A DNA stretch of 64,000 nt from Wenyingzhuangia aestuarii (GTDB taxonomy: Bacteria; Bacteroidota; Bacteroidia; Flavobacteriales; Flavobacteriaceae). Positions 14,003-17,191 of this stretch are shown here, piece by piece (position 1 is the stretch's first letter; every line of letters begins with the position of its first letter). The notes below the pieces were generated by a model, which was not told the origin of the DNA, made no database searches, and saw only the letters and a list, made by a program, of their open reading frames with translations. The position numbers were made by a program, and so were the translations under genes. Where the stretch lies: assembly GCF_011927765.1 (NCBI RefSeq), contig NZ_JAATJG010000001.1, positions 344,792 through 408,791 of the forward strand, written 5' to 3'.

Positions 14003-14042
14003 GGTGTTCGAGCGGAGTCGAGAACAAAGCAGAGTTGAGAAC
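14003..14042. repeat. dispersed repeat fragment between trpD and trpC
   Basis: The 23-nt sequence at 14003-14025 (core TTCGAGCGGAGTCGAGAAC) recurs exactly at 15624-15646 and 15823-15845. A degenerate second unit, GCAGAGTTGAGAAC, follows at 14029-14042. TCGA on both sides of GCGGAG can form a small hairpin. It lies just after the trpD stop and encodes nothing. Confidence 0.7.
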
Positions 14043-14861: not shown

Positions 14862-14866
14862 AATAT

Positions 14867-14945
14867 AGTACAAAGTAAATAGTAAAGAGTACAAAGATAG
14901 CGTAGCTACGGTACTCAATACTTAATACTCAGTACTCAGTACTTT
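14867..14945. repeat. AGTACT-type repeat between trpC and trpF
   Basis: A run of AGTAC-containing units forms imperfect inverted arms around GCGTAGCTAC. The 56-nt part 14888-14943 matches 15921-15976, in front of trpB, with only five differences. Both copies end within 6-10 nt of the next start codon, so they form the 5' flank of trpF and trpB. Confidence 0.7.
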
Positions 14946-14951
14946 AAAAAT

Positions 14952-15581
14952 ATGAAAATCAAAGTTTGTGGAATGAAGCACGAGGAGAATATAAAAGCAG
15001 TAGCGGGTTTACAGCCAGATTATATGGGGTTTATATTCTATCCAAAATCGCCACGTAATTTTGAAGGTGCTATTCCTAAAATGGATGAACACATCAAAAA
15101 AACAGGAGTGTTTGTAAATGCCCCTATAGATTTTGTATTAGAAAAAGTAAAACAATACGGTTTTAAAGCGGTACAATTACACGGATCAGAATCGGTAGCC
15201 TATTGTCAAGAACTAATCAGTCACGATTTAGATATTGAGTTATTTAAAGTCTTTTCAATTAAAGACGAGTTTGATTTTTCTGTACTAAAAAATTACGAAC
15301 CTTTTGTAAATTACTTCCTGTTTGATACCAAAGGAAAAGACAAAGGAGGGAATGGTTATACGTTTGATTGGTCGGTGCTAAAACAATACCCATCAACCAA
15401 ACCTTTTATTTTAAGTGGAGGTATAGGAGTTGATGAAATAGAAAAAGTAAAAGAAATTTTAAAAACAGAATTGCCTATTTATGCTTTGGACATCAATAGC
15501 AAATTTGAAACTGAACCTGCTGTAAAAGATGTGGCCTTGTTACAGCAATTTTTTAATGAAATAAAAGGTCTTGGAGCGTAG
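14952..15581 (+). CDS. trpF: phosphoribosylanthranilate isomerase
   Basis: Amadori isomerisation of phosphoribosylanthranilate to CdRP. It is a 209-aa TIM barrel with the N-terminal KVCGMKHEENI carrying the catalytic Cys7, then DYMGFIFYPKSPR, VGVFVN-like (KTGVFVNAP), AVQLHGSE, and catalytic Asp in LFDTKGKDKGGNG. ILSGGIG and ALDINSKFE form the phosphate site. The last codons (IKGLGA and the TAG stop) lie inside a 121-bp repeat whose second copy is 199 bp downstream, so the C-terminal tail appears to be supplied by the repeat. Confidence 0.94.
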   Translation: MKIKVCGMKHEENIKAVAGLQPDYMGFIFYPKSPRNFEGAIPKMDEHIKKTGVFVNAPIDFVLEKVKQYGFKAVQLHGSESVAYCQELISHDLDIELFKVFSIKDEFDFSVLKNYEPFVNYFLFDTKGKDKGGNGYTFDWSVLKQYPSTKPFILSGGIGVDEIEKVKEILKTELPIYALDINSKFETEPAVKDVALLQQFFNEIKGLGA

Positions 15582-15679
15582 CCAAGAAGTCAAGGAATAA
15601 AAAGGTAATAAAGAAGTGTAAAGGGTGTTCGAGCGGAGTCGAGAACTATTATATCACGACTAAGCTTGATGACCAAGAA
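15559..15679. repeat. 121-bp repeat, copy 1 (overlaps the end of trpF)
   Basis: This copy matches 15758-15878 over 121 bp with about eight differences. It contains a hairpin CTTGG-AGCGTAG-CCAAG near its start and the GAGCGGAGTCGAGAAC core at 15624-15646. The first 23 bp are coding and provide the last trpF codons and stop. Confidence 0.85.
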
Positions 15680-15757
15680 GGTAAAAAAGAGTATTGATTT
15701 GTTATTCGTTTAGTTGTTTAATCAACTTAAGACTTTAACAGATTCGTAAATAAATAT

Positions 15758-15878
15758 AAATAAAAGGTCTTGGAGCGTAGCCAAGAAGTCAAGGAATAAA
15801 AAGGTAATAAAGAAATGTAAAGGGTGTTCGAGCGGAGTCGAGAACTATTGCATTCCGACTAAGCTCGATGACCTAGAA
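15758..15878. repeat. 121-bp repeat, copy 2
   Basis: This is the second copy of the element at 15559-15679, in the same orientation and offset by exactly 199 bp with no indels. It includes the CTTGG/CCAAG hairpin and the GAGCGGAGTCGAGAAC core at 15823-15845. Confidence 0.85.
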
Positions 15879-15899
15879 AATAAAATAGAAACAATAATT

Positions 15900-15976
15900 A
15901 GTACAGAGTATTTAGCACAAAGTACAAAGTGAGCGTAGCTACTGTACTCAACACTCAATACTCAGTACTCAGTACT
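15900..15976. repeat. AGTACT-type repeat in front of trpB
   Basis: Its 56-nt core at 15921-15976 is 91% identical to 14888-14943 in front of trpF. Units of AGTACT and GCGTAGCTAC form imperfect inverted arms. It ends 9 nt before the trpB ATG. Confidence 0.7.
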
Positions 15977-15985
15977 ATATAAATT

Positions 15986-17191
15986 ATGTCAGAATTTCAA
16001 GTAGACGAAAATGGATATTACGGACAGTTTGGAGGAGCTTATATTCCTGAACTATTGTATCCTAATGTAAAGGAATTAGAAGATAATTATTTGGAGATTA
16101 TCAATTCTGAAGCTTTCCAAAAAGAGTATTTGTATTTGTTAAAACAATACGTAGGTAGACCTACACCATTGTATTATGCACCTAACTTATCAGACAAATA
16201 TGGAGCTCATATCTATTTAAAAAGAGAAGATTTAAACCACACAGGTGCTCACAAAATAAACAATACCATTGGGCAAATTTTAATTGCTAAGCATTTAGGT
16301 AAAAAAAGAATTATTGCAGAAACAGGAGCAGGGCAACACGGAGTAGCTACAGCAACAGTTTGTGCGTTAATGAACCTAGAGTGTATTGTGTTTATGGGAG
16401 AGGTAGATATTAAACGTCAATCTCCAAACGTAGCACGTATGCAAATGTTGGGGGCTGAGGTAGTTGCCGCAACAAGCGGAAGCAAAACCTTAAAAGATGC
16501 AACCAACGAAGCTATTCGTGATTGGATTCAACACCCAGAAGAAACCTATTATTTAATAGGATCTGTAGTAGGACCACACCCATATCCAGATATGGTGGCT
16601 CGTTTACAAGCTATTATTTCAGAAGAAATCAAATGGCAGTTAAAAGAACAAACAGGAAAAGAAAATCCAGATACCATTATTGCATGTGTAGGTGGAGGAT
16701 CTAATGCAGCTGGAGCTTTTTATCACTATATGGATGATAAAGAAGTACAGTTAGTAGCGGTAGAAGCTGCTGGTTTAGGAATAGATACCGGAGAAAGTGC
16801 TGCAACATCTCAGTTAGGAGAAGTAGGGGTTATTCATGGTTCTAAAACCATTTTAATACAAGATGAATACGGACAAATTGTAGAGCCTTATTCAATTTCT
16901 GCAGGATTAGATTATCCTGGAGTAGGACCTTTACACGCACATTTGTTTGAAACAAAAAGAGGAACCTTTTTAAACGCAACCGATCAAGAGGCATTAGATG
17001 CTGCCTTTGAATTAACCAAATTAGAAGGAATTATTCCAGCCCTGGAAAGTTCACATGCTTTGGCGGTGTTAGGTAAAATGGATTTGCAAAAAGATCAAGT
17101 AATTGTCATCAATCTATCAGGTAGAGGAGACAAAGATTTAGAAACATATATTACTGAATTAGGTAAAAGACAAGCTAGAGGAGATGAGTAA
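15986..17191 (+). CDS. trpB: tryptophan synthase beta subunit
   Basis: PLP enzyme that condenses indole with serine. The length of 401 aa fits. The PLP lysine is in [11 protein letters not shown] (about residue 91), the conserved [10 protein letters not shown] and [11 protein letters not shown] motifs are present, and GGGSNA binds the cofactor phosphate. The C-terminal SGRGDKD is intact. The start of trpA lies within the end of this gene (8-bp overlap), consistent with coupled synthesis of the alpha2-beta2 complex. A 404-bp repeat-filled gap separates it from trpF. Confidence 0.96.

Follow-up and report, generated by a model that had tools for sequence, protein, structure and literature searches.

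REP-type palindromes supply the end of trpF in Wenyingzhuangia, with a neighbouring GIY-YIG nuclease as their candidate mover

The junction between trpF and trpB in the analysed stretch of Wenyingzhuangia DNA (64,000 nucleotides, henceforth the window; the genome that holds it, G000, comprises 3.53 Mb in 43 contigs) is occupied by a cluster of three REP-type palindromes, two in direct and one in inverted orientation, which is locally duplicated and whose first member provides the last codons and the stop of trpF. We observed directly the anatomy of this cluster, the copy number of its palindromes, the covariation of their stems, their in-frame insertion into other genes and the differences in TrpF tails between relatives; from these observations we infer that the palindromes probably behave as a small mobile repeat, with a putative mover in the form of a single-domain GIY-YIG nuclease.

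Architecture of the trpF-trpB junction

The trp operon of the window has the order trpE-G-D-C-F-B-A (gene names were taken from a reading of the ORFs, with TrpF assigned by PF00697) and is preceded by a Bacteroid-trp leader (RF01692), the sole match to the window in an Rfam search. Between trpF and trpB we found a direct repeat of 132 bp (15559-15690 and 15758-15889; 122/132 positions identical, spacing 199, no indel). The original prediction, which was made from the letters of the sequence, had described two same-orientation copies of a 121-bp unit, 199 bp apart, free of indels and about 93% identical, and we recovered this arrangement with 114/121 identical positions (94%). It had further suggested that the unit was a small mobile or RNA-structured repeat, an idea against which an absence of further copies in the genome was to count. 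This absence is what we found for the 121-bp unit, which occurs only twice in G000, as two adjacent copies at trpF-trpB, and was rejected as a dispersed element; the suggestion carries over to the component palindromes, which belong to a genome-wide family of 78 copies. Palindromes in the cluster are of the type GGT[C/G]-[T/A]TCGAGCGNAGTCGAG[A/T] (Table 1). Another, single palindrome lies between trpD and trpC, and likewise G002 and G004 have one palindrome about 900 bp upstream of trpF.

Table 1 Features of the trpF-trpB junction and its surroundings (window coordinates)
Feature	Position	Strand	Basis or remark
Single palindrome between trpD and trpC, GGTG-TTCGAGCGGAGTCGAGAAC	14003..14025	+	3 nt past trpD stop
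trpF, phosphoribosylanthranilate isomerase, 209 aa	14952..15581	+	ORF list; PF00697
trpF codons 206-209 (GLGA) and stop, made of palindrome A sequence	from 15567	+	codon reading
Palindrome A, copy 1, GGTC-TTGGAGCGTAGCCAAGAA-GTC	15567..15591	+	diverged, 3 mismatches from TTCGAGCGNAGTCGAGAA
trpF stop TAG, in the loop of palindrome A	15579-15581	+	codon reading
Palindrome B, copy 1, GGGTG-TTCGAGCGGAGTCGAGAA-CTATT	15623..15650	+	exact member
Palindrome C, copy 1, inverted, degenerate	15652..15676	-	forms a single long hairpin with B
Spacer after copy 1	15681..15757	+	by eye like the plain trpF-trpB spacer of relatives, ATTTGTTTTT...AAATAAACATAAA
Palindrome A, copy 2	15766..15790	+	identical to copy 1
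Palindrome B, copy 2	15822..15849	+	sequence reading
Palindrome C, copy 2	15851..15875	-	sequence reading and fold
trpB, downstream gene	15986..17191	+	ORF list

The CTTGG/CCAAG hairpin noted earlier folds as claimed (RNA, -6.4 kcal/mol). When compared with 200 shuffled sequences, the stretch from A to C in copy 1, with its long B-C hairpin, folded at -26.9 kcal/mol (z -3.0), and the B-C hairpin of copy 2 at -32.2 kcal/mol (z -3.9). This predicted RNA hairpin between trpF and trpB may be a by-product of the palindrome cluster. A MAFFT alignment of trpF-trpB spacers was uninformative, one of its three rows being a one-base dummy reference. We also noticed a second repeat (AGTACTCAGTACTCAATACT... 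with AGCGTAGCT) at 14862-14950 and 15893-15984 of the window, i.e., directly 5' of the start codons of trpF and trpB; a stretch resembling it also precedes trpB in G006 and Ochrovirga.

Palindrome-derived TrpF tails within the genus

The named organisms with a related TrpF are Wenyingzhuangia heitensis, W. gilva, W. marina and Ochrovirga pacifica, which places G000 in Wenyingzhuangia. TrpF of G000 ends in NEIKGLGA, with the reading running through a drifted palindrome. At the site of palindrome A, W. marina (G004) and G005 carry the intact palindrome TTCGAGCGTAGTCGAGAA, and their TrpF proteins end in KGVRA and KGIRA, respectively, via an intact GGT-G/A-TTCGAGCGTAG...; the TAG stop lies inside the palindrome loop in all three genomes. 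The tails of G001 and G002 (both KGECV, with palindromes just downstream) and of G003 (EIH, with two degenerate palindromes downstream) are not derived from the palindrome, and TrpF ends in EIKQS in G006 and in EIKQK in Ochrovirga, neither of which has a palindrome there.

These comparisons refine the earlier proposal that a repeat had inserted at position 15559 and rewritten the C-terminus of TrpF with the tail IKGLGA and a TAG stop. The repeat does supply a tail and stop, namely GLGA and TAG, and the same tail was not seen in any relative lacking the repeat among the seven genus genomes and Ochrovirga. Since EIK (GAA-ATA-AAA) is common to relatives without the palindrome, however, the residues IK do not come from the repeat and the AATAAAA at its left edge is not specific to it; the repeat thus starts after EIK, at 15567, and the junction lies at 15566/15567 instead of 15559.

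The PF00697 profile spans TrpF residues 4-202 and the chains of solved PRAI structures end at the equivalent of residue 207, which places the tail off the fold. Under our proposed explanation, a palindrome would have landed at the 3' end of trpF such that translation continues across its left arm and ends at the TAG in its loop, and the resulting GLGA, located beyond the conserved fold, would have been tolerated. In a genus tree built from four proteins, G004 grouped with G002 (support 100), G001 branched outside this pair (74), and the other forks had supports of 33-77; this topology with these supports means that the palindrome tail of G004 may stem from a small deletion and that the three palindrome tails need not share one event. 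The forks relevant to the trpF insertion are those with supports of 33-77, which do not separate one origin from several.

TrpF ends elsewhere in Flavobacteriaceae

Extending the survey to 90 genomes of the family, 83 of which had a trpF match, we read 49 loci from outside the genus (no tail was found in two). The trpF-tail palindrome of the genus was found in none of the non-genus tails read; by our reading, other palindromes rewrite the TrpF tail in other genera. Specifically, inspection by eye revealed GTCATTCCGCA-CTTGA-TGCGGAATC with the stop in its loop in G067, G074 and G094, where TrpF ends in SFRT, similar versions of it in G078 and G065, the tail GTCATTCTGA in G076 and G035, and an element GTCATTACGA... 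at the trpF end of G011, G025 and G091. A scan for strict hairpins found the stop inside a hairpin in 14/47 trpF genes (some of them AT-rich and possibly there by chance) vs. 4/92 other gene ends (0/58 other ORFs, 2/27 trpB and 2/7 fused genes; p 6e-5), while missing the palindromes of G000, G004 and G005 owing to their mismatches. Members of the palindrome groups are spread over the TrpF tree, each group still being compatible with one origin. Inserts within TrpF, close to residue 90, occur in G091, G086, G094 and G088, and those of G091 and G086 contain the genus palindrome.

In seven family genomes trpF and trpB form one ORF of about 600 codons (G012, G057, G050, G077, G023, G040 and G020; loci L250, L254, L259, L261, L262, L271 and L272), and the joint in G012 is a translated palindrome, IPAFAGMT.

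A dispersed palindrome family with a covarying stem

The 18-bp palindrome TTCGAGCGNAGTCGAGAA occurs 78 times in G000 at up to 2 mismatches (43 copies exact; 40 and 38 copies on the two strands), compared with 0 hits for a reversed-pattern control. The corresponding counts in other genomes of the genus were 45 (G001), 34 (G002), 44 (G003), 31 (G004), 56 (G005) and 0 (G006), and at least one copy was present in 139/249 genomes of the Flavobacteriaceae. Most copies in G000 are extragenic (70/78, with 7 inside ORFs and 1 at a contig edge), and neighbours up to 250 bp apart were diverging in 14 cases, converging in 12 and in the same direction in 16. No precise target-site duplication was established at palindromes of this family.

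To describe the stem we used 218 distinct 42-mers from six genomes (G000-G003 complete, G004 and G005 partial), which were gathered by likeness to one consensus, and this bounds the variation that is visible. Most of these sites have GGT 5' of a stem made of four outer pairs, a GA/AG mismatch, one inner pair and a six-base loop. The outer stem pairs covary strongly: pair 1-18 was TA in 143 sites, AT in 72, CG in 2 and TG in 1, being paired in every site, and pair 0-19 was CG in 115 and GC in 79. The core of the stem has two readings, one with a double G-A mismatch and one with TCGA/TCGA and a bulge of two bases. A bulge in the outer part was rejected, as the outer pairs covary only in the symmetric register, while the inner part folds both ways.

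Several arrays contain further elements. At L078 (2740-4830) and L180 (2362-2409) there are palindromes with an extended loop in which a second repeat (GGTGTTCGAGAAGCCTGTACTGAGCTTTGCCGAAGTGTAGTCGAGAAC) is nested, and one palindrome of the array on contig 14 of G000 holds an IS110-family transposase element (L078, 3280-4505; PF01548 and PF02371), much like the REP-targeting IS elements of other bacteria. In G159 (L107, 1699-2276), the interval separating a CRISPR array from a Cas1-Cas2-like gene pair holds seven palindromes that alternate in orientation (genes identified by eye).

Palindromes translated within other genes

The original description of the repeat as non-coding proved too simple, as members of the family are translated in frame inside leucyl-tRNA synthetase (LeuRS), MetRS and an AMP-binding ligase, which hold five, one and one, respectively, of the seven intra-ORF copies of G000. 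The LeuRS inserts encode SSSGVE-type peptides where the editing domain begins, between the residues aligned to Thermus 239 and 242. With palindromes, this loop measures 108 aa in G000, 57 in G001, 37 in G004, 62 in G005 and 36 in G003; without a palindrome, it measures 38 aa in G002 and 30-31 aa in most insertion-free genomes. MetRS carries the palindrome in both G000 and G001, the AMP-binding ligase has four different inserts at one site in G000-G003, and an HsdS-like protein of G003 is a further carrier. A script placed 6/45 copies inside ORFs in G001, 3/34 in G002 and 8/44 in G003, including doubtful short or N-terminal ORFs (1, 1 and 4, respectively). Under our proposed explanation, most copies settle between genes, and a few persist in genes where they leave an open frame and a peptide in a loop or tail.

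The same LeuRS loop holds other insertions. In 4/88 family genomes with a LeuRS match, a nuclease-like DUF559 domain (PF04480) lies in frame in this editing-domain loop (L277 in G042, L279 in G056, L281 in G029, and L227, 1474-1947, in G008), flanked in G042, G056 and G029 by palindromes of the CCCC-TTCGGGGG type. We found no paper that mentions DUF559 together with leucyl-tRNA synthetase in the openly licensed literature. As a mover of the trpF-tail palindromes the DUF559 nuclease was rejected, being absent from all palindrome-centred loci of the genus. In other genera, this loop or a second one before KMSKS carries the peptides MLKLVQHDE, HSELVSES, PPQPSPKEREQ and MPTGQAG (loci L145, L276, L278, L164 and L149), which we read as resembling translated copies of other Bacteroidota repeats; the site thus seems to be shared by several families of repeats.

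GIY-YIG nuclease genes beside palindromes

We found a gene of about 100 aa, with a single GIY-YIG domain (PF01541) and no NCBIfam model above cut-off, beside palindromes at two loci in G000, one in G001 and one in G003 (three of four congeners examined). The palindrome loci of G002 had no such gene, nor did 399.5 kb of palindrome-free sequence from G000. At the G003 locus the gene lies between palindromes of the same family, 37 and 44 bp away, and on contig 14 of G000 it is similarly placed, at 41 and 225 bp.

While these loci of the genus were chosen by palindrome, a second sample was chosen by protein similarity alone. A tblastn search with the GIY-YIG protein of Aquimarina returned 34 records of a plasmid collection, mostly from alphaproteobacteria and also from Neisseria (groups with reported CGTC REPs according to PMC3733652; Di Nocera, De Gregorio and Rocco 2013), and 17/34 were analysed. 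A strict test of outward tags found palindromes on both sides of 4/6 GIY-YIG genes and on one side of the other two, as compared with 0 of about 286,000 interval positions in the control. A scripted scan of all 17 loci, which was not blind as it came after the strict test and a reading by eye and used a looser tag rule, found tagged CGTC-type palindromes no more than 200 bp away on both sides in 9/17 loci, on one side in 2/17 and on neither in 6/17; both sides were flanked in 183/56,760 random intervals (0.32%) from six 50-kb stretches. By eye, palindromes were also seen at the GIY-YIG loci of Planktothrix, Spirosoma and Sinorhizobium C101, and none at those of two near-identical rhizobia and Sphingomonas.

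The trp operon itself is among the sites of such genes. In Aquimarina, the GIY-YIG gene lies between trpB and trpA inside GTCATTCCAGCGTAGGCTGGAATCC ... GGATCCCAGCCTACGCTGGGATGAC, i.e., in the same operon as the G000 cluster, and in G074, G077, G067 and G020 it lies after trpB, next to a different palindrome, as read by eye (the strict scan scored zero for G074, G077 and G067, the start used for G074 having included the palindrome). Separately, we observed GIY-YIG genes between sufB and sufC in Azospirillum lipoferum (L342) and between rnc and era in Sphingomonas paeninsulae (L352), which, like the trp case, are junctions within housekeeping operons.

A search of the openly licensed literature for GIY-YIG with 'repetitive extragenic palindromic' returned no paper, one for GIY-YIG with palindromic returned none on REPs among the matches listed, and the word GIY is absent from PMC3733652; the link may be in print elsewhere. 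The association between GIY-YIG genes and palindromes thus appears to be new here, and it is a correlation. One possible, if rather doubtful, explanation of it is that a homing-type gene has settled in REP-rich junctions as a passenger, with no part in moving the palindromes. Such junctions do draw unrelated elements, e.g., the IS110 element within a palindrome or the RAYT-like Y1 gene between trpF and trpB in G205 (L099, 1549-2100), but a mere passenger fits poorly with the palindromes on both sides in 9/17 loci and with the outward tags on both sides in 4/6 strictly tested ones.

We therefore put forward, at roughly even chances and from genomic context, that single-domain GIY-YIG nucleases move CGTC-type REPs and their Bacteroidota cousins. 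The autonomous element would then be a nuclease gene enclosed by two outward-tagged palindromes, with free palindromes or pairs (such as those behind the TrpF tail and the LeuRS loop peptides) as its non-autonomous offspring. In G000 and its congeners the mover would be the nuclease encoded beside the same palindromes; in other bacteria its gene lies between two head-to-head REPs of the CGTC type, much as RAYT lies within GTAG REPs.

Comparison with host signals and known REP classes

Two accounts would dispense with a nuclease. Instead of mobile DNA, the palindromes might be RNA signals under host selection that terminate transcription, stabilise mRNA or slow translation, which is in keeping with hairpins 8-22 nt past the stop codons of several genes, with a long B-C hairpin that outperforms the shuffled sequences, and with the finding that E. 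coli REPs up to 15 nt from the stop lower translation (PMC12306157). We consider this unlikely, however, because the position is not conserved, relatives having no palindrome in the same junction, and because copies are found in either orientation, within synthetase reading frames, in the gaps between divergent genes and densely arrayed on contig 14. A classical REPIN moved by RAYT (a Y1 tyrosine transposase), as for GTAG REPs, would account for dispersed palindromes and inverted pairs and for a weak link between Y1_Tnp and any palindrome (66/139 vs. 30/110 family genomes, p 0.0016), but is quite improbable given that this association is gone at 10 or more and 20 or more copies (p 0.41 and 1.0), that G000 has no Y1_Tnp (PF01797), that a RAYT protein query matched 8/20 genomes and missed G000, G001, G003-G005 and the palindrome-richest G137 and G185, and that most RAYT-like loci examined had no adjoining palindrome of the trpF-tail family.

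The genus palindrome has the general features of a REP, namely a length of 20-40 bp and many dispersed, mostly extragenic copies. CGTC REPs as described in PMC3733652 share with it the length of 20-40 bp, an unpaired 5' tag, the lack of an association with Y1/RAYT (G000 has no Y1 transposase), A-T pairs at the first and second stem positions (in the ATCGAG variant), intragenic copies that include tRNA synthetase genes, and a reported presence in Bacteroidetes among other phyla. Measured against the same description, the differences are the tag (GGTC/GGTG vs. CGTC, or TGTC/CCTC), the stem (a G-A/A-G double mismatch or bulge with a six-base loop vs. a stem of 8-9 bp with a loop of 4-5 bases), the lack of a CCA tail after the stem, and the trpF stop in the loop. 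Head-to-head pairs, the predominant arrangement in CGTC REPs, showed no clear excess among neighbouring copies of the genus palindrome (14/12/16).

With GTAG REPs or REPINs and their RAYT, our system shares inverted pairs, the gift of a TAG stop to a flanking gene (often provided by the ends of GTAG REPs) and an enzyme gene within a REP pair, whereas the palindrome has no GTAG tag, G000 has no RAYT and the candidate enzyme is GIY-YIG instead of HUH/Y1. As both tag and stem differ from the CGTC and GTAG types, we filed the genus palindrome in neither. Rickettsia palindromic elements (as cited in PMC3733652) similarly lie in frame in housekeeping genes, but the genus palindrome has another sequence, is found in Flavobacteriaceae and also supplies a gene end and stop codon. 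REPs inside genes, tRNA synthetases included, and stops provided by REPs are already known from PMC3733652.

Implications for Flavobacteriaceae and beyond

CGTC REPs seem to be without a dedicated transposase, and which enzyme, if any, makes them is left open by PMC3733652; the GIY-YIG nuclease gives this role a named candidate. If our proposal is true, it would explain both how selfish palindromes have repeatedly rewritten essential enzymes (TrpF, LeuRS and MetRS) at their ends and loops and why the trpF-trpB junction recurs as a landing site.
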